In this document: one piece after another, positions 1 to 28,870 of the stretch
Numbering within the stretch: the stretch's first letter is position 1
Layout of the letters: each line of letters begins with the position of its first letter
Assembly: GCA_028277585.1 (NCBI GenBank)
Contig: JANQFY010000021.1
Location: forward strand, 1 to 33,417
DNA: 33,417 nucleotides
Direction: 5' to 3'
Source of the DNA: Sedimentisphaerales bacterium
GTDB lineage: Bacteria > Planctomycetota > Phycisphaerae > Sedimentisphaerales > Anaerobacaceae
Notes under the pieces: generated by a model
Told to the model about the DNA's origin: nothing
The model's input: only the letters and a program-made list of their open reading frames with translations
The model's database searches: none
Program-made: the position numbers and the translations under genes

Positions 1-1311
1 AACAGCGGTCATGGCGTAATGGGCCAGTTCGGGCTCAGCGAAGTCCGCTTCATGTACATCCCGGCCCACGCCCGCGAGCCGCAGCCGGCCGACGGCGCAG
101 TCGACGTGAGCGTGGCGACCGACCTGGCCTGGAGAGCGGGACGTGATTCGGTCTCACACGAGGTTAGCTTTGGGACCGATCCCGACGCATTGGCCGCGGC
201 CGGCGCCGTCGATGTCGCCAGCTTCACGCCTGGTGTCTTGGATCTGGCAACGATGTACTACTGGGCCGTCGAGGAGATCCAGGATGCCGAGTCCTGGGCG
301 GGCAACCTCTGGAGCTTCACAACACAGGGCTATATCGTCATCGACGGTTTCGAGGCCTATGACGACGACGAGAACCGCATCTACCAGAGTTGGGTCGATG
401 GCTATGGCGTCAATAGCAACGGCTCTCAGGTGGGCCATCTCGAGTCGCCGTTTGCCGAACAGACCATCGTCAAGAGCGGCAATCAGTCCATGCCGTTGTT
501 CTATGATAACAGCAGCGCCGCCATGTCCGAGGCGGAGCTGACGTTGTCAGAGGATTTCTCGGCCAGTGGCATCAAGAGCCTGACGCTCTCGTTCCATGGC
601 GATGCGGGCAACATCGGTGGTCAACTGTATGTCAAGATCAATGGCGCCAAAGTTCTCTATGACGGCGTTGCCGCCAAGCTCAGCGCCACCGGATGGAATC
701 TCTGGAGCATTGATCTGTCGACGGTTGGCAACGTGAGCAACGTCACGTCGTTGATCATCGGCGTCGAAGGCGCCGGGGCCAATGGCGTCGTGTACATCGA
801 CGACGTTCGGCTGTACCCTGAGGTCCTGGCGTACCACAGGAACGCGGACATCACGGGCCCGGATGACATCGTTCAAGGTGTCCCGAACGACGACGACTGG
901 CCCGCGGGCGAGAATCCGCCGCTGGCGGTCGATGACGACGTCAACACCAAATACCTGCACCGCAAGGGCGGTTCCATGGCGACTGGTATTCAGATCACGC
1001 CGACGGCCGGCTCCACCATCGTAACAGGTCTGACGCTCACCACCGCCAATGATGTCCCGACCCGTGACCCGATCACGTTTGAGCTGTCCGGTTCGAACGG
1101 GACCATCGATGGGCCGTACACGGTGATTGCAGCGGGTGATATCGTTGACTTCGCCGGCGAAGCCGATTGGCCGCGCTTCACGAAGAACGGCACAATCATC
1201 ACGTTCGACAACGACGCGGCCTACACGCACTACCAGATCGTGTTCCCGACGCTCCGCGGCGCCGACGAGACGCTTATGCAGATTGCAGAGATCGAACTCA
1301 TCGGTCAGTAG
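1..1311 (+). CDS. Secreted carbohydrate-binding multidomain protein, 3' part only
   Basis: The reading frame is open from the first base, so the 5' end lies outside the window; the ATG at 19 is probably internal. What remains (about 436 codons) shows three parts. First is an FN3-like module with PADGAVDVSV near the start, YYWAVEE and LWSFTTQG at its end. Next is a beta-rich domain starting IDGFEAYDDDENRIYQSW and ending in YIDDVRLYP, typical of galactose-binding-like jelly rolls. The C-terminal discoidin-like domain begins ADITGPDDIVQGVPNDDDWP and ends MQIAEIELIGQ. No catalytic domain is visible. By family resemblance this is the C-terminus of a large extracellular planctomycete protein that attaches to polysaccharide; the missing N-terminus could hold LamG or enzyme domains. 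A strong hairpin terminator follows at 1365. Confidence 0.8.
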   Translation, partial: NSGHGVMGQFGLSEVRFMYIPAHAREPQPADGAVDVSVATDLAWRAGRDSVSHEVSFGTDPDALAAAGAVDVASFTPGVLDLATMYYWAVEEIQDAESWAGNLWSFTTQGYIVIDGFEAYDDDENRIYQSWVDGYGVNSNGSQVGHLESPFAEQTIVKSGNQSMPLFYDNSSAAMSEAELTLSEDFSASGIKSLTLSFHGDAGNIGGQLYVKINGAKVLYDGVAAKLSATGWNLWSIDLSTVGNVSNVTSLIIGVEGAGANGVVYIDDVRLYPEVLAYHRNADITGPDDIVQGVPNDDDWPAGENPPLAVDDDVNTKYLHRKGGSMATGIQITPTAGSTIVTGLTLTTANDVPTRDPITFELSGSNGTIDGPYTVIAAGDIVDFAGEADWPRFTKNGTIITFDNDAAYTHYQIVFPTLRGADETLMQIAEIELIGQ

Positions 1312-5074: not shown

Positions 5075-5620
5075 TTGGGCGACCGCCAGAAAGAACTGCT
5101 GGAGTTGCTGGAGAAGTCGGGGCCGAAGCTCATGGCCCTGCTCACCAGACTGACCTTGCGCGAGGATGTCGCCGAGGAGCTCATGCAGGATCTGTTCGTC
5201 AAACTCAACGGCGCCAGGACTCCCGGCGGCGTCGACTGCTGGTACGCCTACGCCCGTCGCACGGCTATCAATTTGGCCTTCGACTGGCGGCGTCGGCAGG
5301 CGACCCGGCGGACCTGTTCGCTCGACAGGCTCGGCGAGCGTGCCTCAGACAGCCGCGCGCCGGTGGGACTGCTCATCCAGGATGAGCAGGTCGAACAGAT
5401 TCTCGCAGCCATCGATCGGCTCAGCGGCGTCTCGCGCGAGGCGTTTGTCATGCGACATATTCAGCAGGATTCGTACGAAGAGATTGCCGAACAGCTCGGC
5501 AAGACCGTCCATCAGGTGCGCGCTTTGTGTTCTCGCGCGATGAGCACGCTTCGCAACGTGCTCGGTTGCGACCGTGGCCCGAACGACGGAAAGGAGGTGC
5601 AGCATGTCGAACATGAATGA
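5075..5620 (+). CDS. ECF-type RNA polymerase sigma factor (cassette 2)
   Basis: A 181-aa ECF sigma factor. Region 2 includes REDVAEELMQDLFVKLN (about residues 28-44) and CWYAYARRTAINLAFDWRRR. Region 4 spans about 110-165 (AIDRLSGVSREAFVMRHI, YEEIAEQLGKTVHQVRA, ALCSRAMSTLRNVL). The start is TTG at 5075, supported by AAAGGAG at 5062-5068 with six-base spacing and by the TATAAT promoter just upstream. Its last 17 bases overlap the next gene, whose ribosome binding site lies inside this gene, so expression of the pair is likely coupled. It is only loosely similar to the sigma factor at 1542, which suggests separate regulons. Confidence 0.9.
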   Translation: MGDRQKELLELLEKSGPKLMALLTRLTLREDVAEELMQDLFVKLNGARTPGGVDCWYAYARRTAINLAFDWRRRQATRRTCSLDRLGERASDSRAPVGLLIQDEQVEQILAAIDRLSGVSREAFVMRHIQQDSYEEIAEQLGKTVHQVRALCSRAMSTLRNVLGCDRGPNDGKEVQHVEHE

Positions 5621-7781
5621 AGCTGAGATTCGGCGTCGTTTGGAGCTGCTCTCCGAGGTCACCCCGTCGGCCGAAGCCACCGACCGGGCGATGCAGCGCG
5701 TGCGGCAACGTCTGATGGGATCCCCTGAACAGACACAGGCTCGCAGCGCGAGCGTCTGGAGAATAATCATGGAAAGCAAACTCGCCAAACTGGCCCTGGC
5801 CGCCGGGATCATCCTGGCCGCCCTGATCGGCCTGAACATCATGGGCGACCGCCACCTGGGCGGCGTCGCCTGGGCCCGGATGCTGGAAAACGTCCAGCAG
5901 ATCCAGTCGTACATCCATCGCACCCGGATGACCATTTCCAGAGAAGATCAGCCGGACGCCCAAGTGGAATTCAAAATGTTCCGCTCCGGCGACTTCGGGA
6001 TTCGCCGTGACGCCTATATCGAGGGTGAACTGGCGACCCAGTTGTACGTTCCCTGGGATGCTCAGAAATGCGTCGAGGTCATACCCAGTCAGAAGAAGTA
6101 TGTCAGGGCGATCTTCGGTGAGGCCCAGCTCGCCGAGATTCGCGAGAAGAACGATCCGCGTGAAATGGCCAAGCTCATCATGTCATTCGACTATGTCGAT
6201 CTGGGCGTCCAGACGATCAACGGAAGGCAATGCGAAGGGATTGAAGTAAACGATCCCCGATTCGGACGGATGCTCTTCGAAGAAGGGATCGGACGGATAT
6301 GGGCCGATGTCGAGACGGACCTGCCCGTCCTGATGGAGTTCATCGGAACCTCGGCAGGCGGCGCCATCAGAACCAAAATCGTCCTCGACGAATTCGATTG
6401 GCAGGCGCCGCTGACGGCGGGCGACTTCGAGCCGAACATACCGGCCGACTACACCGTCATGGCTGAGGTGGACCTGTCCCCCGGCGCCGAGAGCGCCGTC
6501 AATGGGCTTCGCATCTTCGCCGGCATCACAGGTGGAACGTACCCCAGCAGCCTGGATCTGATGACCTCAATGAAAGAGGTCCAGTCCGCCTTCCTCATCG
6601 AACGGCGCAAGCGGGGCGTCGCCATGGAGCAGGAGCCGACGAAGGAGGAGATGGGCAGTATCCTGGCGATTCAGGGCGTCTGCATGTTCTACGGCCAGTT
6701 GATGAACGAGGACCGAGACGTCGCCTACTATGGCGATCAGGTGAGCGCCGAGTTTCCACACGCCGTCCTATGGCGCTGGAAGGGCGGCACTGACGAGTCC
6801 GGCAGCGATACATATCGCGTCATTCTGGGCGACCTGACGGTTCGCGACGCAACGGCAGCGGAACTCGAAGCGCTGGAGGCAAGGCCCCTGAATCTCGCTC
6901 CTCAGGCAATCCGGCCTGAGCCAGCCGATGGAAGCGTGGGCGTGCCTCTTCTGGACTTGAAGCTGAGTTGGCTGCCCGGCGCCGGCGCCATCGAGCACCG
7001 ACTCCGTTTGGGCGATGATCCGGATGATCTGCCGCTGCTGACGACCGAGACCGATCCCGACTTCGCCGGCGACCTCGAACTGCAGGCGGACACGACCTAT
7101 TACTGGCGTGTGGACGAAGTCGCATCCGACGGGACCGTCGAGGCGGGGACCTTATGGAGCTTCAACACAGGTCAATTGGTGGCTCTGTGGAGTCTGGACG
7201 AGGGCGAGGGAATGACCATCTCCGACAGCAGTGGCAACGACCACACCGGTGTCCTGAAGGGTGATCCAACCTGGACTTCAGGCGCCATCGGCGGCGCGCT
7301 GGAGTTCGACGGCGATGGTGATTATGTCGACCTGGGGACCTCGCCCAGCTTCGACATCACCGACCGGCTCACGGTGACTGCCTGGATCAAGGTCACGAGC
7401 TTCGACGTGGATTGGCAGACGATCATCAGCAAGGGGGACGTCGCTTGGCGGCTGTCGCGCAGTCAGGGTGACAACCTGCATTTCGCCTGCACAGGCCTCT
7501 GGCCGGAATGGGTGCACGGAAACGCCAATGTCAACGATGGGCGCTGGCATCATGCGGCCGGCGTCTGCGACGGGACGACGCTCCGTCTCTACATCGATGG
7601 ACAACTCGACGTCTCAGTGACGACCGCCGGGCGAATCAATGTGTGTGAGTACCCCGTCACTATCGGCGAGAATCTCGAGGAACCACAACGTGCGTGGAAC
7701 GGCGCCATCGACGAGGTCCGACTCTACAACTACGCCCTCTCCGAAATGGAGGTCAAAGCCCTCTACGACGCCAGGCCGTGA
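5604..7781 (+). CDS. Transmembrane anti-sigma-like protein with FN3-like and LamG sensor domains
   Basis: A 725-aa protein. ATG 5604 is chosen because AAGGAGGT at 5591-5598 sits five bases upstream. Residues 1-55 are charged and presumably cytoplasmic. One transmembrane helix lies at about 60-79 (LAKLALAAGIILAALIGL), followed by GGVAWARML as in the anti-sigma-like protein at 2087. Residues 85-300 form a LolA/MucB-like extracytoplasmic region, with an unrecognised segment after it. At about 432-523 is an FN3-like module (PEPADGSVGV, YYWRVDEV, LWSFNTG). Residues 525-725 form a LamG/concanavalin-like domain (VALWSLDEGEG, SGNDHTGVL, GALEFDGDGDYVDLG, GAIDEVRLYNYALS). Together with the overlapping ECF sigma gene this suggests that outside sugar binding controls sigma release; that role is inferred. 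Confidence 0.8.
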   Translation: MSNMNEAEIRRRLELLSEVTPSAEATDRAMQRVRQRLMGSPEQTQARSASVWRIIMESKLAKLALAAGIILAALIGLNIMGDRHLGGVAWARMLENVQQIQSYIHRTRMTISREDQPDAQVEFKMFRSGDFGIRRDAYIEGELATQLYVPWDAQKCVEVIPSQKKYVRAIFGEAQLAEIREKNDPREMAKLIMSFDYVDLGVQTINGRQCEGIEVNDPRFGRMLFEEGIGRIWADVETDLPVLMEFIGTSAGGAIRTKIVLDEFDWQAPLTAGDFEPNIPADYTVMAEVDLSPGAESAVNGLRIFAGITGGTYPSSLDLMTSMKEVQSAFLIERRKRGVAMEQEPTKEEMGSILAIQGVCMFYGQLMNEDRDVAYYGDQVSAEFPHAVLWRWKGGTDESGSDTYRVILGDLTVRDATAAELEALEARPLNLAPQAIRPEPADGSVGVPLLDLKLSWLPGAGAIEHRLRLGDDPDDLPLLTTETDPDFAGDLELQADTTYYWRVDEVASDGTVEAGTLWSFNTGQLVALWSLDEGEGMTISDSSGNDHTGVLKGDPTWTSGAIGGALEFDGDGDYVDLGTSPSFDITDRLTVTAWIKVTSFDVDWQTIISKGDVAWRLSRSQGDNLHFACTGLWPEWVHGNANVNDGRWHHAAGVCDGTTLRLYIDGQLDVSVTTAGRINVCEYPVTIGENLEEPQRAWNGAIDEVRLYNYALSEMEVKALYDARP

Positions 7782-8065: not shown

Positions 8066-8311
8066 CTATCTGCGTCCGACTTTCTCAAACGGATCACTCA
8101 TGATCTTGAACACTTCGCCCCCACATTCGAGGCACTTCCAGGGTCGCGGCCTGCGGGCGTCGCGAATCCAGAAGATCGCCCAGAGCCCCGTCAACAGGGT
8201 CAGAGCCGCATGCGGCACATGGTTGATGCCCTGCCGCCCGACCGGCACCTGTTTGAGGCATTTGCCGCAGTAGCCACTGGCCTCTTCGAATCGACTGAAC
8301 CACCGTCGCAT
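8066..8311 (-). CDS. Small zinc-ribbon membrane protein, hypothetical
   Basis: About 81 aa from ATG 8311 (MRRWFSRFEEASG). Two CxxC pairs, YCGKCLKQ and WKCLECGG, flank a hydrophobic stretch ALTLLTGLWAIFWI that could be one membrane helix. This is a split zinc ribbon around a membrane segment, seen in many short bacterial proteins of unknown function. The frame stays open up to 8389, but the extra codons cross the 8324-8343 palindrome and look non-coding. No strong ribosome binding site is visible, so the start is uncertain. It lies between the end of the giant arabinosidase gene and the DUF6485 gene, all on the - strand. Confidence 0.6.
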   Translation of the reverse strand: MRRWFSRFEEASGYCGKCLKQVPVGRQGINHVPHAALTLLTGLWAIFWIRDARRPRPWKCLECGGEVFKIMSDPFEKVGRR

Positions 8312-8323
8312 GGCATAGGCTCT

Positions 8324-8343
8324 ATAGGTCCTATAGGACCTAT
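8324..8343. repeat. 20-bp perfect palindrome
   Basis: ATAGGTCCTATAGGACCTAT reads the same on both strands and is itself built from repeated GGTCCTAT/ATAGGACC units. It sits just after the stop of the giant glycosidase gene and just before the zinc-ribbon gene. It could be a weak terminator stem, a protein binding site or a copy of a dispersed repeat. Confidence 0.7.
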
Positions 8344-8351
8344 TATGAGCA

Positions 8352-11300
8352 TCAATCCCTGATTCTGAGTTTGTAGATTCGCACGCCATAGCCCGGCGCG
8401 GTCAGCGTATCGGATGCATCCGAGACCCGGTCCTCCTCGATGACCACCTTCGGCTTGGCGTCGGGATCATTGTAGACCATGGGGTCGGGGTGAGCAATGG
8501 TCCAGCAGCGACCGGCCCCGGTCAGCGCCACCCCGTCCAGGTCCAGATCGACCTTGTAGGTCGCCGGGTTGGGATTGACAATCCCGATCGTCAGGGCCTT
8601 GCCGTCCTTCGTCCAGGCGGCCGCGACATCCAATCCGTGCATCTGGCCCGAAACCGCCACCGGCGTCTGCCCGAAGTGCTCGCGATAGAGCTTGAGCACC
8701 AACCCTGTGGTCTCGAAAGCCGCCGCGGTTTTGGACGTCTTGATGGCGCCGATGACGTTCACTGTCTGGGCGTAGTTCGCCATGAAGTACAGATCGCTGT
8801 AGCGCATCATCTCGTGCAACCCCGCTGCAATGCCCAACCCGTCCTTCATGAAGTACCGCGTTCCGAGTTCGCCAAAGACGTGCGGGCCGTACCAGTAGTT
8901 CCATTCGTCCAGGGCGATGCGAATGTCCTTGCCACGAAGCGACTCCATCTTCTCACGATATTCCCGGTGCGCCTCGGCAATCCCGCGCACGGCTCCCGGA
9001 ACCTGTTCGACATGCTCGGTGATGTCGTCCCTGCCCTGGCGGTAGAAGTGCTCGCTGATCAGGTCCATCGTCTCGGTGCAGTGGGTCAGCATGCCCTCGG
9101 TCCACTTGCCGACCGCTCCGACGCCGATCAGTTTGATGTCAGGATCGACCGCCTGCATGGCCTTGGCGAAGAGATTGTGCTTGATGACATAGTGGTTCAG
9201 CGCCATGTGCCCGAGCTGCCAGGCGCCGTACATCTCATTGCCAATGCACCACCACTTGACATCATAGGGCTCGGCATGGCCATTCTCGGCGCGCCATTTG
9301 CCCATCAGAGTCTCAGCCGAACCGTTCGCGTACTCGACTTCCTGGGCGGCCGAATAGTCGTCTCCGAACCCCGCGTTGACCGCGATCATCGGCTCGGTGC
9401 CGATCTCGCGACAGAACACCATGAACTCGTCGAGCCCGAAGTCGTTGTGCTCGACGCCGCGCCAGGCGGGATTCTTCCGCGGCGGACGTTTGTCGCGCGG
9501 GCCGACGCCGTCGCGCCAGTTGTAGCCACTGACGAAGTTGCCGCCGGGCCAGCGGTAGACCGGTGCGTTCAGTTCCTTGAGCAGTTTCAGCGTATCGGCC
9601 CGCATCCCGTGCACGTTGTCGCTTGGCATCAGGGAAACCGTGCCGACGTAGGCCTGCCCGCGACCGACGCGAATCTCCAACATCGCCTCATCGGTCGATG
9701 CACCGGCGGTGAAACCGAGCGGACACTCGATGTATCGCCCCGTATTGACCGTGAAGAAGTTGGACTGACGTTGCTTTCGGCCCTTGCCCCAGACGAGCGT
9801 GACTTCGACGTTCACCCCTTCACGAGTCTTGGGCTTGACCCAGATGTAGCCCGTGTAGCGCTTCGCCTTCAGGACTCCGAGATCGCCCTGCCGCATGCCC
9901 CCGGCGGCGCGGATGATCGGCGTCTGGTCGCCGACAAAGGAATCCTCTGTCTCCATAACCACGCTGCTCGTCGAGCCGATCGTCTTCCAGGGCGACGGCT
10001 CGCTCCCGACGGCGTAGTAGAATTTGCGATCCGCCAGCATCTCAGCCCAGATGCCTCCGTCGATGCAGCGGCCCAGGTGTTCGATGAACTGCCCGTAGAT
10101 GTATTTGGAAATCGGTTCGCCCTTCTGGGCCGCGTCGATTGCCACCGCCGGCCGGATGCTCTCGGCCAGACGGAAGACGTGATTGTCCCGCGGGCGCACC
10201 AGAGCCGGATTGCTCGCGTCGTCCCACGCGACTTTCATGCGAGACAGATACCAACTGGCGCCCTTGTCGTTGTTGCCCTGGAAAAACAAATGCAATTGAC
10301 CGTCCGTATCCCGGAAGACGCCCGGATGGCCCGACTCGCTGGAATTCCACTCACCCGGGCGACCGTTGGGAAGCAGTGGATACTGAGAGAGGCGCTTCCA
10401 AGAGACGCCATCGGTGCTCACGGCGCAGCCCACCTGCTGGGGAGCGTTGTTGTACGCGCCGGCGTAGAACATGTAGAGCTTGCCGCCGTGCTTGAACAAC
10501 GTGGGCGCTTCGATACACTTGCCCTCCCAGGGCAGTTCGGGTTCGAGGATCGACGTATCGCACAGTTGCGTCCATTTGTCGCGACCATAGTCGGAATCGG
10601 CCGGCGCGCCGGCGACGACCAGCTTCTGGATCTTCATTTCAGGATCGCGGGTCGCGCAGTAGAGCAGCATTTGCCCCTTGTACTCGATGGTCTCGGCGTC
10701 GATCGCGCGACCAGAGTTCCAATCTCCCGTCGGTCGGAAGATGGGATTCGTCGGGTTACGTTTGAAGTGAATTCCATCGTCAGAGACGGCGTGGCAGATC
10801 GCGTCGCGCGGGCCGTTGCCGTAACTCTGATAGAACAGGTGGACCTTGCCGTCCCGGACCATAGCGCCCGGCGCGGCCAATCCCTTGCGCTCGTAGTCCG
10901 CGCCGGGCAGGACCTCGCCAACCTTCTTCCAGTTCGTCAGATCCTGGCTGGCCGCGATGCCAACGGCAAAGCCGTCCTTTCCACGACTGATGGAGTAGTA
11001 CATCAGGTAGCGACCTTTGAATCGCGCCACGTCGGGGTCCTTGGCGAACGACCGCTGATACGAGTCATCGGTGTAGTACATCCGGGGTCGACCCGATGCA
11101 TCACCTGAGTCGCCCAATCGCTCGAGCTGAACGTCGTCGTACCAGGCCTTGCCGGTCGACTGGCCCCAACCGCCGAAGAGGCAGTTGATCTGAATGGCCG
11201 TCTGTGTGCTCGTCTCGAATTCGCCGCTGATCTGCGTCCAGTCTTTTGTCCCGGTAACCGCCGGAGTCCGAACAGCCTGCATATTGTGGATGTTCAGCAG

Positions 11301-13529
11301 CGCCCCTTTGCCCGAACCGGCCTTGAGGTCCTCGGTCTTGATCCACGCACTGAGCCGATAGCGCGAATAAGGTTTGACGCGCACCGAGGCGAGCCAACCG
11401 GCGTCAGCCCCACCTTCGGAAGCAATCGTGACGCAGCGCTGCCCCGTGCGTCCCTGGCGAGCCACGCGGAACTGCGCCTGCCCTCCATAGGTGCGGCGTT
11501 CCCAGCCGGTCGGATTCGAGCCGGAGCCCCGCTCGAAGGAGGGGTTGCGCAGCATGCCTTCGGCGATCGTCGGCTCGGCGGTCTGCTCATCGCGGGCCAG
11601 CCAGACAGCCATTTCGCCCTGGCCCCGATGGGCCCAAGCGTAGTACGGGATCGCAACGAGATTCCTCTGCTTCTTCTGCACGGTCTTGCCGTCGCTCGCA
11701 TAGCGCAGCGCCATCGCCTTGCCACGCAGGACGGTGACGCCCCCCAGCAGGTTCGCACGAGACTCGGCGCTCAGCGGTGTCTTGTCGTCAAGCACAAGGT
11801 TGAAGACCTGACCATCATTGTCGGGCCATTCGGCGCAGTAGACCAGCGGCCCGCGCTCCAGTGCGACCCGGCCCCGATCGGCTTCGACACGCTCGTTCGC
11901 TACGACTCGCCGGATCGGCATGGGCAGGTTCAGCTCGATGACATCGCCCGACTTCCAGTCGCGCTCCAGATGGGCGAACCCCCTCGCCAGGTTCAGCTTG
12001 GCTTCGGCCCCGTTGACCTTCAGCGTCACTGCTTCAGTGCTCTTGTCCAAATAGTGATACAGATCGCTGGGAACCGGCTCGTTCCGCGCCCAACCCGGGA
12101 TGCGGAGGCATACCGTGAACCGACCTGCCGTCTGCGGATCGACCTTCAAACGAATCTTGCCGTCCCACGGATACTCGGTTTCCTGGGTCACGTTGACGGT
12201 TCTCTCGTCCATCTCGATGGTCGCCGTGCCCTGGGCAAACAGATTCACGTACAGCCGGTCCTTCGTCTGGGCGTAGACATAGCCCGGCACCGATGCGATG
12301 AACCGCGCGATATTGCCCGGACAACAGGCACAACCAAACCAGGGGCTGCGCTTGTGCTGTCCATGGGAGGCGAGCGGATTGGGGTAGAAGAACAGATTGC
12401 CCTCCAACGAGACGCCCGAGATCAACCCGTTGTACAGGCCGCGCTCAAGCACGTCGATGTACTTGGCGTCGTCGTGGAAGAGGAACATCCGATGATTCCA
12501 GTAGACGTTCCCGATGGCCGCACAGGTCTCGCAGTAGGCGGTCTCGTTGGGCAGTTCGTACGCCTTGCCGAAAGCTTCGCCATGCCCCGTCGCTCCGATC
12601 CCGCCGGTCAGGTAGAGCTTCTTCGAGACGACATCCTCCCAGATTCGGTCGATCGCTTCGAGATACCGTTTGTCGCCGGTCATCGCCGCGACATCCGCCA
12701 TGCCGCTGTACATGTAGGACGCCCGCACGGCGTGGCCCACCGCCTCGCTCTGCTCGTAAGGCTTCTCGTGGGACTGGTTATACGGATTGCCGCCGGGCCC
12801 GCGCGTATCCAGGAGGAACTTCGCCAGCTTCAGATAGCGTTCGTTTCCGGTGATGCGATAGAGCTTGACCAGCCCCATCTCGATGACCTGATGTCCCGGC
12901 GGATCTTCGTTCTTGCCCGGGGCGAAGACGGTATCGAGAAAATCGGCGTTCTTGATCACGACGTCGAGCAGGTTCCGCTTGCCCGTCGCCTGATAGTGCG
13001 CTGCCGCCGCCTCGTAGAGATGACCCATGTTGTACAGCTCGTGACTGTCCGCCAGCTTCTCCCAGCGCTTGTCCCCATACCAGCCCTTGAGCCGCTCGCA
13101 CTTGTTGGTCCGACAAGTGAACAGATAGCCGTCCTCTTCCTGGGCGCCGGCGATCATGGCGATCAGGTCGTCCAGGTACTTGTCCAGCTTCGAGTCCGGC
13201 TGCACGTTCAGGACGTACGAAGCCCCCTCCAGGATCTTGTACGGATCGGTGTCGTCGAAGGGGAAACCACCTCGGTGCTCGCCCTCGCCCTTGCCGGCGG
13301 CCAGCAGGAAATTGTTCATCCGCCCGTTCTCTTCGCACTTGCCAAAGGCGTACGGAATCGTGACCGTTCGATTCGTCTCGATGCGCGGCGCCCAGAACTG
13401 ATCGGTCACCTTCACGCCCGTAAAGGGGACGGGCCGGATGGGATAGTCCCGTTCCGCAGCATCCGTCAGACTCAGGCCGGTCAGGGGCATCCCCACACAC
13501 ATAATCCAGACAGTTGCTCGAGCGGTCAT
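8352..13529 (-). CDS. Trimodular secreted arabinan-degrading enzyme: GH127 - CBM - GH43-like - GH51
   Basis: A single uninterrupted 1725-aa frame. ATG 13529 has AAAGGAGAT just upstream and opens a signal peptide. Residues about 34-640 are GH127 (beta-L-arabinofuranosidase): acid/base candidate E318 in HGEAF, zinc ligands E334 and C336 in CETC, C402-C403 in GCACCPGN with C402 as nucleophile by comparison with HypBA1. Residues about 654-806 are a galactose-binding-like CBM (MLRNPSFERGSG to WYDDVQLERLG). Residues about 814-1120 are a GH43-like beta-propeller with D831 in KDPDV and E1007 in CIEAPTLF. Residues about 1129-1725 are GH51 alpha-L-arabinofuranosidase with acid/base E1432 in WCIGNEMYG and nucleophile E1542 in LDEWNYW. 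All key residues are intact. The substrate is inferred to be arabinan or another arabinose-rich polymer. Confidence 0.9.
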   Translation of the reverse strand: MTARATVWIMCVGMPLTGLSLTDAAERDYPIRPVPFTGVKVTDQFWAPRIETNRTVTIPYAFGKCEENGRMNNFLLAAGKGEGEHRGGFPFDDTDPYKILEGASYVLNVQPDSKLDKYLDDLIAMIAGAQEEDGYLFTCRTNKCERLKGWYGDKRWEKLADSHELYNMGHLYEAAAAHYQATGKRNLLDVVIKNADFLDTVFAPGKNEDPPGHQVIEMGLVKLYRITGNERYLKLAKFLLDTRGPGGNPYNQSHEKPYEQSEAVGHAVRASYMYSGMADVAAMTGDKRYLEAIDRIWEDVVSKKLYLTGGIGATGHGEAFGKAYELPNETAYCETCAAIGNVYWNHRMFLFHDDAKYIDVLERGLYNGLISGVSLEGNLFFYPNPLASHGQHKRSPWFGCACCPGNIARFIASVPGYVYAQTKDRLYVNLFAQGTATIEMDERTVNVTQETEYPWDGKIRLKVDPQTAGRFTVCLRIPGWARNEPVPSDLYHYLDKSTEAVTLKVNGAEAKLNLARGFAHLERDWKSGDVIELNLPMPIRRVVANERVEADRGRVALERGPLVYCAEWPDNDGQVFNLVLDDKTPLSAESRANLLGGVTVLRGKAMALRYASDGKTVQKKQRNLVAIPYYAWAHRGQGEMAVWLARDEQTAEPTIAEGMLRNPSFERGSGSNPTGWERRTYGGQAQFRVARQGRTGQRCVTIASEGGADAGWLASVRVKPYSRYRLSAWIKTEDLKAGSGKGALLNIHNMQAVRTPAVTGTKDWTQISGEFETSTQTAIQINCLFGGWGQSTGKAWYDDVQLERLGDSGDASGRPRMYYTDDSYQRSFAKDPDVARFKGRYLMYYSISRGKDGFAVGIAASQDLTNWKKVGEVLPGADYERKGLAAPGAMVRDGKVHLFYQSYGNGPRDAICHAVSDDGIHFKRNPTNPIFRPTGDWNSGRAIDAETIEYKGQMLLYCATRDPEMKIQKLVVAGAPADSDYGRDKWTQLCDTSILEPELPWEGKCIEAPTLFKHGGKLYMFYAGAYNNAPQQVGCAVSTDGVSWKRLSQYPLLPNGRPGEWNSSESGHPGVFRDTDGQLHLFFQGNNDKGASWYLSRMKVAWDDASNPALVRPRDNHVFRLAESIRPAVAIDAAQKGEPISKYIYGQFIEHLGRCIDGGIWAEMLADRKFYYAVGSEPSPWKTIGSTSSVVMETEDSFVGDQTPIIRAAGGMRQGDLGVLKAKRYTGYIWVKPKTREGVNVEVTLVWGKGRKQRQSNFFTVNTGRYIECPLGFTAGASTDEAMLEIRVGRGQAYVGTVSLMPSDNVHGMRADTLKLLKELNAPVYRWPGGNFVSGYNWRDGVGPRDKRPPRKNPAWRGVEHNDFGLDEFMVFCREIGTEPMIAVNAGFGDDYSAAQEVEYANGSAETLMGKWRAENGHAEPYDVKWWCIGNEMYGAWQLGHMALNHYVIKHNLFAKAMQAVDPDIKLIGVGAVGKWTEGMLTHCTETMDLISEHFYRQGRDDITEHVEQVPGAVRGIAEAHREYREKMESLRGKDIRIALDEWNYWYGPHVFGELGTRYFMKDGLGIAAGLHEMMRYSDLYFMANYAQTVNVIGAIKTSKTAAAFETTGLVLKLYREHFGQTPVAVSGQMHGLDVAAAWTKDGKALTIGIVNPNPATYKVDLDLDGVALTGAGRCWTIAHPDPMVYNDPDAKPKVVIEEDRVSDASDTLTAPGYGVRIYKLRIRD

Positions 13530-15792: not shown

Positions 15793-16536
15793 TCAGTGCG
15801 CCACCGTGGTGGCCGTCATGGTAGGCACGATGCACGCAGCCATCACGGCAGCCTGCATGGCGGCGATGGCGTCCCCGGCGGCCTTGCCGATGATCTCCCC
15901 GTTGATGATCTGCTCAATCCGTTGTTTCCGGGCCTTCAGCGCCTTCTTGTCAAAGACGACCCGCAGAATACCGGTGCGCTGAGCTAGCGAGATGAGCACG
16001 ACCGTCTCCGGATCGATCTCATCGGTGTCCGTGAAGATAGCCTCCTCCATTCGATCGATGATCCGGCGTTCCGGCCCGGGATCGATCTCGGGGTAGATCT
16101 TCCGCGTGAAGAGGAGCAGGACCTTATCCTCGTCCGCTTGCAGAATGCCCCGTTCGCAGAGCCGCGTCGCCACGCGATGCTTGAGCTGCTTGATGTTCGC
16201 GAAATGGGACACCCAATTCCCCGGCTGCTTGCGCCGCCGGACGGTCTCGATGCGTTCGAGACACTCATCGAGCAGGTCGTCACCGAGCGACGTGTCATTA
16301 GCCAGGGTCACCAGCTTCTTGTTGCGTCGGGGCTCCTCGATGCAGATTCTCTCCTCGAGCAATAGCTCAGCGAGAATGGCGCCTGCCACCGCGTAGTTGT
16401 ACATCGCTCCGGAGGCGATCGTCCCCTCCTCATCCCGCAGGGCCAGCAACATGATCTCTTCGTACAGATGCAAGTTGTCGTTTCTCGTCATCGGTCCATT
16501 CTCCAGATGTTGGGATCCTGCCATCGGTTCCGTCAT
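15793..16536 (-). CDS. GPP34 (Golgi phosphoprotein 3-like) family protein
   Basis: A 247-aa protein with the family signature LHLYEEIMLLALRDEEGTIA, then YAVAGAILAELLLEERI, and a middle part with RRRKQPGNWV and RLCERGIL. The C-terminus ends in an Ala/Met-rich hydrophobic helix (AAMQAAVMAACIVPTMTA), possibly membrane-interacting. Eukaryotic members bind phosphatidylinositol-4-phosphate; bacterial members are known mostly from Actinobacteria and lack a settled function. The start is uncertain. ATG 16536 has AAGGA very close upstream, but the TATATA at 16545-16550 would place transcription start right at that codon. ATG 16491 (MTRNDNLHL) fits the conserved core better. Confidence 0.8.
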   Translation of the reverse strand: MTEPMAGSQHLENGPMTRNDNLHLYEEIMLLALRDEEGTIASGAMYNYAVAGAILAELLLEERICIEEPRRNKKLVTLANDTSLGDDLLDECLERIETVRRRKQPGNWVSHFANIKQLKHRVATRLCERGILQADEDKVLLLFTRKIYPEIDPGPERRIIDRMEEAIFTDTDEIDPETVVLISLAQRTGILRVVFDKKALKARKQRIEQIINGEIIGKAAGDAIAAMQAAVMAACIVPTMTATTVAH

Positions 16537-22432: not shown

Positions 22433-23512
22433 TTACTCAGCGACCTTCTCAGCGATAAGGTCGCCCACCTCGGAGGTGGAGTAGCCCATGCGTCCGGCGG
22501 CCAGCGACTGCAGCTTGCTGGCGGTCACGAACATCACGGCCTGCTCGATCTTCTCGGCGGCCTTCTCTTCGCCCAGGGTCTCGAGCATCATCTGGGCCGA
22601 GCAGATGGCGGCCAGCGGATTGATGATGCCCTTGCCTGTGTACTTCGGCGCGCTGCCCCCGATCGGCTCGAACATGCTAACGCCCTCGGGATTGATGTTC
22701 CCGCCGGCGGCGATGCCCATGCCGCCCTGCGTGATGGCGCCAAGGTCGGTGATGATGTCGCCGAACATGTTGCCCGTGACAATCACATCGAACCACTCGG
22801 GGTTCTTGACCATCCACATACAGGTGGCGTCGACGTGGTAGTACTCCCGCTCGATGTCGGGGTACTCGGCCTCGCCGATCTCGTGAAAGGCGCGTTCCCA
22901 CAGGTCGTAGACGTAGGTCAGCACGTTTGTCTTGCCGCAGAGAGCGAGTGTGTTCTTGTCGCCTTTGCCCCGCGCCTTCTTGCCGTGCTTCTTGGCGTAT
23001 TCGAACGCGTAGCGCAGACACCGCTCGACCTGGAAGCGGTTGTAGACCGCCGACTGAACGGCGACCTCGCTGGGGGTGCCCTTCATCGTGAAGCCACCGG
23101 TACCGGTGTAGAGGTCACCCGTGTTCTCACGCACGACGACGTAATCGATCTCGTCCGGGCCCTTGTCCTTCAGCGGCGTGTCCACGCCGGGGTAGAGTCG
23201 GACCGGACGCAGGTTGATGTACTGATCCAGCGCAAAGCGGGCCTTGAGCAGAATGCCTTTCTCCAGGATACCCGGCGCCACATCCGGATGGCCGATCGCA
23301 CCCAGCAGAATGGAGTCGAACTGGCGCAGTTCTTCAACGCCGCTGTCGGGCAGGGTCTCGCCCGTACGTTTGTATCGCTCACCACCGAAGTCGAACTCGG
23401 TCAGTTCCATCTTGAAACCGAATTTGTCGGCCGCGGCCTTCAGCACCTTCACTGCTTCGACCGTGACTTCCGGCCCCGTCCCGTCGCCGGGCATGACTGC
23501 AATCTTGTACAC
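22433..23512 (-). CDS. leuB: 3-isopropylmalate dehydrogenase
   Basis: A 359-aa enzyme that oxidises and decarboxylates 3-isopropylmalate with NAD in leucine synthesis. Visible signatures: [10 protein letters not shown] at the N-terminus, [20 protein letters not shown], and [12 protein letters not shown] with the metal-binding aspartates, followed by [16 protein letters not shown]. The GTG at 23512 is preferred as the start because AAAGGAGA lies about eight bases upstream; the TTG at 23533 would place the ribosome site inside the gene. It is the last gene of a leucine operon whose other genes lie beyond two sulfatase genes. Isocitrate or tartrate dehydrogenase relatives share the fold, but the leu context settles the call. 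Confidence 0.92.
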
Positions 23513-23557
23513 CGTCAATTCTCCTTTGCTCAAAGCTTCATACGTTTATCGCTTAGG

Positions 23558-25045
23558 TTAGGTACTCTTACGATTCGGGTTGGGCGTCGGCATCAACGCG
23601 CCGACTTCGCGGCGCCAGTCGTGCAGCATTTGGCGCAGCGCCGCGGCTTTCTCGGGCATCTGCGCAGACAGATCGTTCTGTTCACCGACATCATCCCGGA
23701 GATTATACAACTCTACGCGGTTGTCCTCATAGTGTTCTATCAGCTTGTAGTCGCCCAGGCGCACGGCGCCACCCGGAGAACCACCCTGGTTGCCGTAATG
23801 CGGATAGTGCCAATACAGGGCGCGCTGCTTCTGTCGGCCCGATCGCTTCAATAGCGGCACCATGCTCCGGCCGTCCAGATGCCGGTCGGGTCGTGCCGGT
23901 AGGGACGCCATCTCCAACATGGTCGGATAGAAGTCCGTGCTGGTCACCGGTTCATCGCAGACGCGTCCGGCCCTGGCCTTGCCGGGCCAGCGGATCATCA
24001 TGGGCTCGCGGATGCCGCCCTCGTAGAGCCAGCCCTTACCCGCCCGCAGGGGCAGGTTGCTGGTCGGATGGCCCTCCGAAGTCGAGAGGCCGCCGTTGTC
24101 CGACATGAAGAAGACCGCTGTATCGCGGGCCAGATCCAAGCGGTCCAGGGCGTCCAGCACCTTGCCCACCGCCTGATCCATCGCCTCGACCATTCCACCA
24201 TAGATGGCGTGGTCCTGCACAAGGCGCACCTTACGTTGCCCTTCCTGGCCCCACTTGGCGCCTTCATGTGCGAGCGTTTTGGCCTTGGCTTCGTACTTGG
24301 CCTGCAGATCCGGCCGCGACATCAAGGGCGTGTGAACAGAATAGAACGACAGATACGCCAGGAACGGCTGGTCCTGATTGGCCTCGATGAACTGGCAGGT
24401 CTCGGACGCCAGGCGGTCGGGCAGATGCTCCCCGTCAGGACCATCCGAAAGCCTGGGGTTCCCATAGGGCGAGAAGTACTTCTTGCCCCCGTAAGGACCG
24501 CCCCGTTGGATGCCGCCCTTGTTCACATCGAAACCCTGATCCTCGGGCCAGAAACCTTCGCGGCCCAAGTGCCACTTGCCCGCAAAGAATGTCGCGTACC
24601 CGTGCTGCTTCAACGCTTCGGCAATCGTCACTTCCTCCAGGGGAAGGCGGTCAACGTACGGGGCCGGCAGAAGCTGGCGACTCTTCGGCCAACGCGGGCC
24701 TATTCTATCCGGCTGAGGCCCGCCGAAGAAATCGGTCGTCTTGAGCCGAGCAGGGTAGCGCCCCGTCATGATGCTGGCCCGAGTCGGCGAGCAGACCGGA
24801 CAGGCGGCGTACGCGTTCGTGAAACGCATTCCCTCGGCCGCCAGACGATCCACGTTGGGCGTTTCATAGAACGTGCTGCCGAAACAGCCCAGATCCGTCC
24901 AGCCAAGGTCATCGACGAGAATGAACACGAAGTTGGTTCTCTTGGTGCCCTGCGCTCGTCCTGAGACTCGTTCCGGTCCGGCGCAACCGGACAGCAGAGC
25001 CGCCGCTCCCGCCCCGGCCGCTTTCAGAAATCCGCGTCGATCCAT
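23558..25045 (-). CDS. Tat-exported arylsulfatase-like lipoprotein (sulfatase 1)
   Basis: A 495-aa type I sulfatase. ATG 25045 is chosen because GGAAGGGAAG lies just upstream and the protein then begins MDRRGFLKAAGAG, a twin-arginine signal, with a lipobox-like LLSGC at 18-21. Metal ligands D45-D46 sit in ILVDDLGWTDLG. C85 in CPVCSPTRAS is the C-x-P-x-R cysteine converted to formylglycine by a maturase that is not in this window. Later motifs are AGKWHLGR, FFMSDNGG and MSRPDLQAKYE. Such planctomycete sulfatases remove sulfate esters from algal or animal polysaccharides; the target is unknown. It is closely similar to the next gene and lies 27 bases after its stop, within the leu gene string. 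Confidence 0.92.
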   Translation of the reverse strand: MDRRGFLKAAGAGAAALLSGCAGPERVSGRAQGTKRTNFVFILVDDLGWTDLGCFGSTFYETPNVDRLAAEGMRFTNAYAACPVCSPTRASIMTGRYPARLKTTDFFGGPQPDRIGPRWPKSRQLLPAPYVDRLPLEEVTIAEALKQHGYATFFAGKWHLGREGFWPEDQGFDVNKGGIQRGGPYGGKKYFSPYGNPRLSDGPDGEHLPDRLASETCQFIEANQDQPFLAYLSFYSVHTPLMSRPDLQAKYEAKAKTLAHEGAKWGQEGQRKVRLVQDHAIYGGMVEAMDQAVGKVLDALDRLDLARDTAVFFMSDNGGLSTSEGHPTSNLPLRAGKGWLYEGGIREPMMIRWPGKARAGRVCDEPVTSTDFYPTMLEMASLPARPDRHLDGRSMVPLLKRSGRQKQRALYWHYPHYGNQGGSPGGAVRLGDYKLIEHYEDNRVELYNLRDDVGEQNDLSAQMPEKAAALRQMLHDWRREVGALMPTPNPNRKST

Positions 25046-25072
25046 TTTCTTCCCTTCCGTACCTTCCATAGC

Positions 25073-26578
25073 TTATCCCCTCTTCGACTCCTGCCAGACC
25101 TTGAAGTCCTTTCTCGGCTCGCCCTGGGGCATCTTGGCGTTCATCTGCTTGCGCCAGACGTGCAGCATCCGGCGCAGCTTGGCCGCTCTCTCGGGCTGCG
25201 CCTCGGCCAGGTCGTGCTGCTCGCCGATATCGTCCTTGAGGTTGTAGAGCTCGACGCGCCCATCCTCGTACCACTCGATGAGCTTGTAATCCCCGGCTCG
25301 AACCGCACCGCTGGGTCGGTTCCCACTGCCATGATAGTGTGGGTAGTGCCAGTACATCGCGTCGCGGCTGAGCGTCCCGGTTCCCCTGAGCAGCGGCGTC
25401 AGGCTCATCCCATCGATGTGCTGTTCGGGCTGCTGGGGCAAACCCGCCATCTCCAGCATGGTCGGATAGAAATCCGTGCTCGTCACCGGCTCATGACACT
25501 CGCCGCCCGGTCTGACGACGCCGGGCCATTTGATCAGCATGGGCTCGCGAATGCCACCTTCGTAGAGCCAGCCCTTGCCCGCCCGCAGAGGCAGATTGCA
25601 CGTCGGACCTTCGCGCGGTACGGTGGACAGGCCGCCATTGTCGGACATAAAGATCACGATCGTGTCCTGCTCCAATCCGAGCGTCCTGATCTTGTCCAGG
25701 ACCCGACCGATACTCTCGTCGACGCTCTGCACCATGCCGGCGTAGACCGCGTGGTCCTGGACCATGCGGGTCTTGTATCGTCCATAGACCGGTTTGGAGT
25801 GCGGCCCCTTGGGTTTGGGCATCTTCTCTGCCTTGGCCCGGTACTTCTCCGTCAGTGTCTTCTTCGATTCCAGCGGTGTATGGACCGCGTAGTGCGACAG
25901 GTACAGCAAGAACGGCTTGTACTTGTTCGCGTCGAGGAACTTGAGCGATTCGTCCGTCAGGCGGTCGGTCAGGTACTCGCCCTTCTCGCCGCCCGGCGGC
26001 ATCGTTTCCAGCTTGCGGTTGCGCTTCTCGTACGGGTAGAAATACGTCGGCGGCGCGCCGGACCAGTCGCCCCCGATGTTGACATCGAAGCCCTGCCGAT
26101 CTGGGTAGTACTGCCAGCGGGTCTCGTCCCGCGTCGAGAGATGCCACTTGCCGACAAAACCGGTCGCATAGCCCGCCCGTTTGAGCGCCTCGGCGATCGT
26201 CACTTCCTCCAGCGGAAGGTAGTGGCGATACGGCGTCGGTTCGTTGGGCCCACCAATCCACTGCGTGATGCCCAGCCGCGCGGGGTACTTGCCCGTAACG
26301 ATACTGGCCCGTGTCGGCGAGCAGACCGGACAAGCCGCGTACGCCTGTGTGAACCGCATGCCTTCAGCCGCCAAGCGATCGATGTTCGGCGTCTCATGGA
26401 ACGAGCTGCCATAACAGCCCAGGTCCTTCCAACCCATATCGTCGATCAGAAAGAAGACGAAGTTGGGGCGCCGAGTCCGCGCACGGGCTCCATCGCCAAG
26501 GCCTCCGGCCTTGACGCTGCCACCCAGACACAGAGCCGCGCTGGCTCCCATGGCTTTGAGGAAGTTGCGCCGATTCAT
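25073..26578 (-). CDS. Tat-exported arylsulfatase-like protein (sulfatase 2)
   Basis: A 501-aa type I sulfatase with a twin-arginine signal (MNRRNFLKAMGASAALCLGG). Metal ligands D46-D47 lie in FLIDDMGWKDLG. The formylglycine site is C86 in CPVCSPTRASIVTGKYPARL. VGKWHLSTRDE, VIFMSDNGGLS and REPMLIKWPG are also conserved with sulfatase 1, and the two share long identical stretches, so they are a tandem duplication. Unlike sulfatase 1 it lacks a clear lipobox Cys at the end of the signal and may be released to the periplasm. It starts 19 bases downstream of leuD, which implies transcription from the leu promoter. Confidence 0.92.
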   Translation of the reverse strand: MNRRNFLKAMGASAALCLGGSVKAGGLGDGARARTRRPNFVFFLIDDMGWKDLGCYGSSFHETPNIDRLAAEGMRFTQAYAACPVCSPTRASIVTGKYPARLGITQWIGGPNEPTPYRHYLPLEEVTIAEALKRAGYATGFVGKWHLSTRDETRWQYYPDRQGFDVNIGGDWSGAPPTYFYPYEKRNRKLETMPPGGEKGEYLTDRLTDESLKFLDANKYKPFLLYLSHYAVHTPLESKKTLTEKYRAKAEKMPKPKGPHSKPVYGRYKTRMVQDHAVYAGMVQSVDESIGRVLDKIRTLGLEQDTIVIFMSDNGGLSTVPREGPTCNLPLRAGKGWLYEGGIREPMLIKWPGVVRPGGECHEPVTSTDFYPTMLEMAGLPQQPEQHIDGMSLTPLLRGTGTLSRDAMYWHYPHYHGSGNRPSGAVRAGDYKLIEWYEDGRVELYNLKDDIGEQHDLAEAQPERAAKLRRMLHVWRKQMNAKMPQGEPRKDFKVWQESKRG

Positions 26579-26597
26579 GATCGCTCCTTGATCCGAA

Positions 26598-27086
26598 TTA
26601 CGATTTCAACTCTGCAGCGATCTTGTCGAGCAGACCGCCGGCCTTGATGATCTCCAACGCAAAATCGGGCAACGGCTGGAAACGGATCTCCTCGCCGTTC
26701 GTCTTGTCCTTGATCACGCCCGCCTCGTAGTCGATCTCGATCTCGTCCCCGTCACCGATTCTCTCTACCGCATCGGCCGACTCGATCAGGTAGAACCCGC
26801 AGTCGATCGCGTTGCGGTAGAAGATCCGCGCGAAGGACCGCGCGATCACCGTCTGGACCTTCGCCCCGCGGATCGCCCAGACCGCATGTTCACGGCTGGA
26901 ACCGCACCCGAAGTCGTCGCCGGCGACGATCACATCATCCGCCGCGACCTTGTTCACAAAGTTCGTATCGAGATCCTCCAGGCAGAACTTCGCCAGTTCC
27001 GCCTCGTCGTCCGTATTCAGGTACCGCGCCGGAATGATCTCATCCGTATTGATGTGATCGCGTTTGTATACATGAGCCTTTGCCAT
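26598..27086 (-). CDS. leuD: 3-isopropylmalate dehydratase small subunit
   Basis: A 162-aa subunit that pairs with LeuC to isomerise 2- to 3-isopropylmalate. It has [13 protein letters not shown], then [17 protein letters not shown] and [10 protein letters not shown], the aconitase swivel-domain signature. The short length fits the archaeal/homoaconitase-like type of LeuD that goes with a LeuC of about 420 aa, as here. ATG 27086 is chosen because GAAGGTGAGG lies seven bases upstream. It is separated from leuC by about 480 bases that hold a four-helix-bundle gene. Confidence 0.93.
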
Positions 27087-27118
27087 GTCTAACCTCACCT
27101 TCTATCAAGTGTGACACT

Positions 27119-27174
27119 CGTTCAAATCAAATATCAAATCGCGAAGATCAAAATGACAGATCAAAACTCAAAAA
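27119..27174. repeat. A/T-rich TCAAA-repeat flank of the four-helix-bundle gene
   Basis: This stretch repeats ATCAAA words (TCAAATCAAATATCAAATC, AGATCAAAATGACAGATCA). Facing inward from the other side of the gene, the - strand at 27570-27545 reads GAAATCAAAGGTCAAAGATC, so the gene has imperfect inverted flanks. The composition differs sharply from the GC-rich leu genes. Confidence 0.55.
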
Positions 27175-27175
27175 G

Positions 27176-27547
27176 CTACCTCTTGCCCTTCAGCGTGAGG
27201 ATGCTCGAGGCGAAGATGTTGGCGATTTCCTCAAGCTCATTGAGAAACCACTCAACTTTGTCGGGCTTCACGCGGCCGCTATCTCGCAGCAACGCCAGCC
27301 ACAGCTTGCTCTCGTTTGCCGACTTGAGCGAGATATTGAAGAAGTTCGTGAAATCCCTCTTGCTGCTAGCGGCCTGACCCTCGACGTAATTCGCAATGAC
27401 ACTTGTCCCACTGCGCAACAATTGGTCACCGAGCCGTTTCGATACGTTATCCTTAGGCAACTTATCCAAGAACTCGATGAGCCTCAACGTGAAGCTATAC
27501 AAGCGTTTCTTGAATTCCCTTTTGAATTTGTCTTTGTCGTTTTGCAT
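27176..27547 (-). CDS. Four-helix-bundle protein, 23S rRNA intervening-sequence (S23) family
   Basis: A 123-aa helical protein. The core YSFTLRLIEFLDKLP, LGDQLLRSGTSVIANYVEG, SKRDFTNFFNISLKSANE and LNELEEIANIFASSI is diagnostic of the S23/four-helix-bundle family. Relatives are encoded in rRNA intervening sequences or act as Avd in diversity-generating retroelements; most, like this one, stand alone with unknown function. ATG 27547 is preferred, because the frame upstream of it runs antisense-like through leuC. Coding is A-rich and Lys-rich relative to its neighbours, and the flanks are TCAAA-rich, which suggests it was inserted between leuC and leuD. Confidence 0.85.
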   Translation of the reverse strand: MQNDKDKFKREFKKRLYSFTLRLIEFLDKLPKDNVSKRLGDQLLRSGTSVIANYVEGQAASSKRDFTNFFNISLKSANESKLWLALLRDSGRVKPDKVEWFLNELEEIANIFASSILTLKGKR

Positions 27548-27570
27548 TTCGATCTTTGACCTTTGATTTC

Positions 27571-28833: not shown

Positions 28834-28870
28834 GGCAGTCATCTCTCCGTCTGACGTTTCGGCTTATCTT

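Follow-up and report, generated by a model that had tools for sequence, protein, structure and literature searches.

The gene at positions 8352–13529 of the window (the whole 33,417-nucleotide stretch of DNA analysed) encodes a single polypeptide in which a GH127 module, a carbohydrate-binding module (CBM), a GH43-type propeller and a GH51 module follow one another. The protein is probably a secreted, multi-catalytic, exo-acting arabinofuranosidase relay, and was probably formed by insertion of the propeller into a GH127-CBM-GH51 gene at the same chromosomal slot. Each module is of a known kind, and the GH127-containing combination, which is conserved in one genus, may be new.

Overall architecture of the four-module protein

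The first-pass annotation described a continuous 1725-codon frame, and frame reading bears out both its length and its intactness; the strand, which had been left out, is minus, with the ATG at 13529 and the stop codon ending at 8352 (Table 1). The opposite (plus) strand of 8352–13529 is interrupted by an internal stop. The mechanical open reading frame runs to 1730 codons by way of a TTG five codons 5' of the ATG; domain and residue numbers are counted from the ATG. Pfam places the GH127, GH43 and GH51 segments in their families, each above the curated cut-off, and the eight residues named earlier (E334, C336, C402, C403, D831, E1007, E1432 and E1542) all lie at the positions claimed for them. 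To these we add E318 in the GH127 module and D944 in the propeller.

The view of one polypeptide with three catalytic modules and their residues, a CBM, a secretion-like leader and plausible combined action on both beta- and alpha-L-arabinofuranose (L-Araf) stands, whereas the GH43 label and the scope of the novelty are weaker than had been claimed. The earlier module list was also incomplete, as a beta-sandwich within the GH51 module had been missed, and so had the partial architectures whose succession accounts for the fusion. Across five orthologues, a hydrophobic leader of variable sequence precedes a nearly constant mature start, RDYPIRPVPFT. The leader resembles a Sec signal, and the protein is apparently secreted.

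Table 1 Features of the four-module gene in the window
Feature	Position	Strand	Basis
Whole gene, leader-GH127-CBM-GH43like-GH51, 1725 codons + stop	8352..13529	-	Frame reading, Pfam, orthologues
Predicted Sec-type leader, about aa 1–26	13452..13529	-	Orthologue alignment; cleavage site by eye
GH127 catalytic domain, aa 39–415 (E318, E334, C336, C402, C403)	12285..13415	-	Pfam, 378.6 bits vs cut-off 24.9
GH127 middle domain, aa 426–537	11919..12254	-	Pfam, 81.3 bits vs cut-off 24.2
GH127 C-terminal domain, aa 539–644	11598..11915	-	Pfam, 90.3 bits vs cut-off 23.7
CBM_4_9-like carbohydrate-binding module, aa 659–777	11199..11555	-	Pfam, 33.1 bits vs cut-off 25.9
GH43-type five-bladed propeller, about aa 815–1118 (D831, D944, E1007)	10176..11087	-	Pfam, model, Foldseek, alignment
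GH51 alpha-L-arabinofuranosidase module, aa 1126–1725 (E1432, E1542)	8355..10154	-	Pfam, sequence match, model, Foldseek
Beta-sandwich inserted in GH51, about aa 1181–1302	9624..9989	-	Strands in model of aa 645–1725; MgGH51 match across insert

Family assignment of the propeller module

The propeller appears to be GH43-type, its sequence being ambiguous between GH43 and the sister propeller families. The Pfam GH43 model covers aa 827–1092 at 69.2 bits against a cut-off of 32.2, and the same stretch also exceeds the Pfam cut-offs of GH32N and GH130. The GH43-like label of the first-pass annotation holds in so far as Pfam GH43 matches all 17 of the 17 family members scanned and the top structural match is a GH43 protein; it is loosened by GH32N and GH130, which match 17 of 17 as well (E 0.001 or better), and by a profile of the 17 members, with which two beta-1,2-mannoside phosphorylases, which we take to be GH130, score 66 and 60 bits, ahead of the best GH43-type protein, 3kst (58.5 bits), and of 4qqs (GH43, 44.8 bits).

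The propeller model (mean pLDDT 77.8, built from 6 sequences) has GH43 4qqs as its top Foldseek match (E 5.5e-15, TM 0.68–0.72), and below it stand arabinanases and arabinofuranosidases, including BT_3675. None of the 50 structures in the Foldseek list exceeds 24% identity to the module; among them are also GH32, GH159, a mannan phosphorylase and BT_0996 (5mt2/5mui), presumably GH137. A search of NCBIfam with the propeller returned no model over its cut-off, and the viral contigs scanned held zero relatives. D831, D944 and E1007, which in module numbering are D26, D139 and E202, show no variation across the 17 members and align with the Asp, Asp and Glu of 3kst; we take them to be the base Asp, the pKa-modulator Asp and the acid Glu, respectively. 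Since this GH43-type triad is invariant, a hydrolase is favoured.

It is conceivable, though on balance doubtful, that the propeller acts on a non-arabinose sugar, such as galactofuranose, a beta-mannoside or an anhydro-sugar, and that the protein trims a mixed glycan. The preference of the profile for the two phosphorylases, its reach to BT_0996 and to an anhydro-alpha-L-galactosidase (4ak5-7), and the mixed Foldseek list all point that way, none of the solved structures or NCBIfam models is close enough to name an activity, and in one genome (G102) the same module sits after GH5-like domains, not arabinose enzymes. Nevertheless, GH43 gives both the best structural match and the best Pfam score of the window propeller, its triad is invariant, and the module is also joined to GH51 in three CBM-GH43-GH51 proteins, which argues for an arabinose-type substrate.

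The GH127 module

The closest solved relative of the GH127 module is 6ex6 (780 bits), presumably BT3674, followed by the GH127 beta-L-arabinofuranosidase 4qjy (512 bits) and by 5mqo (350 bits), which we take to be the aceric acid hydrolase BT1003. The Glu-x-Cys and Cys-Cys motifs of the solved beta-L-arabinofuranosidase 3wkw align with E334, C336, C402 and C403; we assume that these four form the Zn/nucleophile set and that E318 is the acid/base Glu. Similarity to 6ex6 and 4qjy predicts beta-L-arabinofuranosidase activity. In the parts of the source cited, BT3674 is described as a GH127 beta-L-arabinofuranosidase that is synergistic with exo-galactanases on larch arabinogalactan (PMC10850190).

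Cleavage of another unusual sugar by this module, for example aceric acid or 3,6-anhydrogalactose, seems unlikely. Aceric acid hydrolase and 3,6-anhydro-D-galactosidases are both reported within GH127 in the portions cited (PMC10850190, PMC5698469), and the 113 sulfatase matches in the genome suggest sulfated glycans. However, the identity as an aceric acid hydrolase is rejected by the NF049879 model (499 bits against an equivalog cut-off of 950), the module is much nearer to 6ex6 and 4qjy than to 5mqo, a comparison outside which the anhydrogalactosidases lie, and its partner modules are arabinose-type enzymes. We therefore retain beta-L-arabinofuranosidase as the predicted activity.

The CBM and GH51 modules

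The CBM scores above the Pfam cut-off for CBM4/9, and its ligand binding is putative. The GH51 assignment is well supported by sequence and by the modelled structure: Pfam gives ASD1_dom at 41.3 bits (cut-off 22.2) and Alpha-L-AF_C over aa 1541–1708 at 68.0 bits (cut-off 27), and the top Foldseek matches are the GH51 arabinofuranosidases 3ug3, 3ug4 and 6zps. E1432 in GNE and E1542 in DEWN are each at least 90% conserved over 24 aligned rows, of which L042 stops short of the two residues. E1432, the Glu after Asn, is presumably the acid/base residue and E1542 the nucleophile.

The beta-sandwich inserted in GH51 is spanned by the match to MgGH51 (6zps), presumably from Meripilus giganteus, whose sequence match (query 1140–1470) and Foldseek alignment (673 columns) both cross the inserted region; we take MgGH51 to be a stand-alone enzyme, unlike the fused GH51 here. 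The 1081-residue model of aa 645–1725 has a pTM of 0.61, so that the relative seating of the modules is not given by the model.

Distribution of the architectures

Other proteins with the order GH127-CBM-GH43-GH51, the combination singled out in the first-pass annotation, do occur: among the matches listed, the four-module protein is found in 6 of the 161 genomes of the order, all from this genus, and CBM-GH43-GH51 proteins (frames of 1114–1145 aa) in at least three (G111, G508 and G515). This survey of 161 genomes used a threshold of 1e-250 and scored few candidates per genome, which makes its counts lower bounds. At family level, GH127-CBM-GH51 single frames of 1443–1565 aa occur in at least nine of 89 genomes (G028, G029, G067, G068, G076, G077, G078, G095 and G098) and GH127 + GH51 frames of 1306–1315 aa in at least three (G010, G071 and G073). 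A sample of the phylum (392 genomes, 1e-260) gave three matches, the window's own at full length and the other two over GH127 only. In a scan of 84,980 genomes, the four-module form appeared only in L039–L042 among the best 80 of 467 relatives (79 loci); L042 is cut, and all four agree in identity and range with G001–G004.

The propeller itself (E 1e-40 or better) is present in 20 of the 89 family genomes, and at this threshold the fused copy is the sole one in the six genomes of this genus. Ten of the remaining 14 carry it as a frame of 334–418 aa, two in fused form (G111, 1145 aa; G102, 990 aa) and two cut by a contig end (G105 and G107). Across the phylum sample, 65 of 392 genomes match at 0.001; besides the window's own genome, strong matches are confined to G268, G306 and G460 (57–62% identity). 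In four genomes (G018, G077, G095 and G097), the propeller gene is separate and lies on another contig than the GH127-CBM(-GH51) gene, whose frames in G018 and G097 extend only as far as the CBM.

Three further arrangements were observed. The 990-aa frame of G102 (L191:5008-7977, plus strand) combines GH5-like (cellulase) domains, the same propeller and a weak C-terminal CE2_N match below cut-off. In G111 (L163:1507-10110, plus strand), the CBM-GH43-GH51 gene comes immediately after two GH127 genes, an arrangement that matches the four-module protein in separate genes. A 1585-aa frame at L059:7395-12149 (plus strand) contains a tandem pair of GH127 matches (27% and 60% identity).

A conserved chromosomal slot and the probable origin of the fusion

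The partial architectures share one conserved slot, which holds GH127-CBM-GH51 in the nearest lineage, a solo GH43-like gene in another genus and, in the present genus, the two combined, the propeller lying at the CBM/GH51 junction. In the window, the four-module gene is flanked by a pilin-like gene and a gene for a 300-aa protein on one side and by a HAD gene on the other. The same flanking genes, in the same order and orientation, surround the solo propeller gene of G036, and the three-module gene of G029 has a HAD gene on one side and a homologue (45%) of the 300-aa gene on the other. On two short contigs, G109 (5.7 kb) keeps the HAD side and G105 (4.5 kb) the pilin side; the G105 propeller is cut before its N-terminus, leaving only the absence of GH51 downstream visible. 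In G003, no pilin-like, 300-aa or HAD gene was found within the stretch taken around the gene.

The GH51 tree (54 rows) unites the four-module proteins in a single clade (99/97), with the GH127-CBM-GH51 protein of G029 as its sister (100/100). A quick GH127 tree (43 of 95 rows, its 22 solo GH127 rows being chosen by similarity) groups the G029 protein in one clade with the four-module proteins (SH-aLRT 99), with its sister position not resolved. In the propeller tree (24 rows), the G111 fusion is nearest (86/84), followed by the G036, G109 and G105 genes (99/96); support at the nearest forks is just 82–86%. The aligned junctions reveal that the propeller enters after the CBM and ends where the solo enzyme ends, the ends of the insert coinciding with those of the mature solo enzyme, and that G029 passes straight from CBM to GH51. 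A complete, mature solo GH43-like enzyme was probably inserted at the CBM/GH51 junction of a resident GH127-CBM-GH51 gene in the same slot.

In the simplest history, a three-module gene already resident took up a solo enzyme that was also resident, and we infer the direction of fusion from it; because the trees are unrooted, the reverse direction is also possible. A four-module ancestor at the slot, of which the three-module protein and the solo GH43-like enzyme would be reduced remains, is compatible with the slot common to all three forms and with the unrooted trees, but is improbable in view of the wider record. Solo propeller genes that begin with a leader-like stretch are found in other genera of the family, as well as in three genomes from other families within the phylum, GH127-CBM-GH51 proteins occur in several genera outside the four-module clade, and no GH51 or GH127 remnants were found in six solo or contig-cut propeller loci (L164, L165, L166, L192, L193 and L194; tblastn at E 1, short weak matches only).

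We also considered a single origin of all propeller-GH51 fusions, which is rejected. The GH51 tree excludes a clade of the four-module proteins with the G111 form (AU p 2e-75) or with the L043 form (p 6e-6), where L043 has the same range as the G508 match; these p values are optimistic, as the test groups were defined after the tree had been seen, and the G515 form lies outside that tree. The propeller tree rejects one clade of all fused forms weakly (p 0.03). The GH51 modules of G111 and L043 come from other lineages, indicating that the junction was used more than once or that modules were exchanged.

Conservation within the genus

All five other genomes of the genus examined carry the gene, four of them at full length (frames of 1732–1745 aa, 75–77% identity); the G001 copy is cut by a contig end, and its missing GH51 part lies on another contig (77%). 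The eight residues named earlier are shared by the window protein and all four full-length orthologues. Pairwise dN/dS (NG86, 10 pairs from five sequences) is 0.10–0.21 for GH127, 0.10–0.32 for the CBM, 0.08–0.19 for the propeller and 0.12–0.22 for GH51, the ratios of the deeper pairs being rough where dS is near 1. Every module is under purifying selection. With the catalytic residues in place and selection acting on the frame, a chance frame is rejected. An assembly or binning error that fused separate genes into the long frame can be set aside with near certainty: the source assembly is a draft fragmented into 532 contigs (80% complete), but the frame recurs in full-length orthologues of four other assemblies, one a single contig (G003). 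Assembly joins at the junctions, the doubt raised in the first-pass annotation, are rejected by the repetition of the architecture in five further assemblies of the genus, in one of which a contig end truncates it.

Proposed relay of arabinofuranosidases and comparison with known systems

In the reading we favour, the GH127 module, with a cysteine nucleophile and a Zn-type active site, would remove terminal beta-L-Araf, the GH51 module would remove alpha-L-Araf, and the propeller would most likely remove alpha-L-Araf in a different linkage or context. The CBM would hold the protein on the glycan, and the cut made by one module would expose the substrate of the next. In the source passages cited, beta-L-Araf is found on AGPs, extensin, arabinan and RG-II (PMC10850190), and alpha-L-Araf is common on those same glycans (PMC8939339); their occurrence together makes joint action plausible. 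L-arabinose isomerase (AraA) is present in four of the five other genomes of the genus, and was detected neither in the draft genome of the window (80% complete) nor in G001 (94%). The neighbourhood, with YdjC, pilin-like, LamG and HAD genes, is unlike a recognisable arabinan utilisation locus.

More speculatively, the relay may cross anomers, GH127 uncapping beta-L-Araf and GH51 and the propeller taking the exposed alpha-L-Araf, or the reverse on extensin-type chains; the propeller would then be an undescribed family between GH43 and its sisters, recruited repeatedly to the CBM/GH51 junction because one natural side chain would call for the three cuts in succession. We offer this extended version tentatively and think it rather unlikely to hold in full. 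More generally, fused catalytic modules hint at the cuts that are consecutive on a natural glycan, and the present fusion would tie a beta-L-arabinofuranosidase to two more arabinose-type enzymes. With its solo, three- and four-module forms, the slot documents unusually clearly how a multi-enzyme protein was assembled, and the propeller family is an uncharacterised target that comes with a strong hint about its partners.

The nearest counterparts are the GH127-CBM-GH51 proteins of the same family (e.g., G029, frame of 1565 aa, at the same slot), which have the same modules without the propeller; we know of no characterised member. Our literature searches, with CAZy itself and most subscription papers outside their scope, found no GH127-containing fusion or multi-enzyme protein. 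The suggestion that the combination is undescribed can therefore be kept for the GH127-containing form, but not for its other parts, as a CBM4-GH51-GH43 hybrid, G12, from a termite-gut fosmid assigned to Bacteroides, has been published (PMC3662619). As described in the portions cited, G12 likewise joins a CBM4-type module, GH51 and GH43 in one polypeptide, and was expressed and assayed, being active on pNP-alpha-L-Araf; it differs in having no GH127 and in its order, printed as both CBM4-GH51-GH43 and GH51-GH43-CBM4, whereas the propeller lies in the middle here (PMC3662619).

In the literature examined, a relay has its best tested precedent in BlArafE of Bifidobacterium longum (GH43_22 + GH43_34), which by the account cited carries two catalytic modules in one surface enzyme and acts sequentially on doubly arabinosylated side chains; unlike the present protein, both of its modules are GH43 and act on alpha-L-Araf, without GH127 or GH51 (PMC8939339). 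In Bacteroides thetaiotaomicron, BT3674 (GH127), active on larch arabinogalactan, and BT3675 (GH43), an alpha-1,3-L-arabinofuranosidase at the next locus number, are described in the sections cited (PMC10850190, PMC8939339). These are separate proteins, and the propeller here is distant from BT_3675 (3qz4, 17% in Foldseek).

Neighbouring genes and genome

A short frame just downstream of the gene (window 8069-8401, minus strand) is 75–81% identical to frames beside solo and fused propeller genes. Parts of window 19-1311 and 5574-7781 (plus strand), the latter with a LamG-type domain, match one 956-aa frame adjoining the CBM-GH43-GH51 gene of G111 (31–36% identity). Window 15793-16536 (minus strand) encodes a GPP34 (Golgi phosphoprotein 3 family) protein, here in a planctomycete. 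The 113 Pfam sulfatase matches of the genome (G000, a 7.17 Mb draft) include some that are pieces of one gene. Pfam also identifies leuA-, leuC- and leuB-like genes at window 22433-30412 (minus strand), where a pair of sulfatase genes separates leuC from leuB; leuB (85%) and leuC (81%) of G076 (L200) likewise have a sulfatase of 74% identity between them, and a GH127-CBM-GH51 gene lies one gene away.
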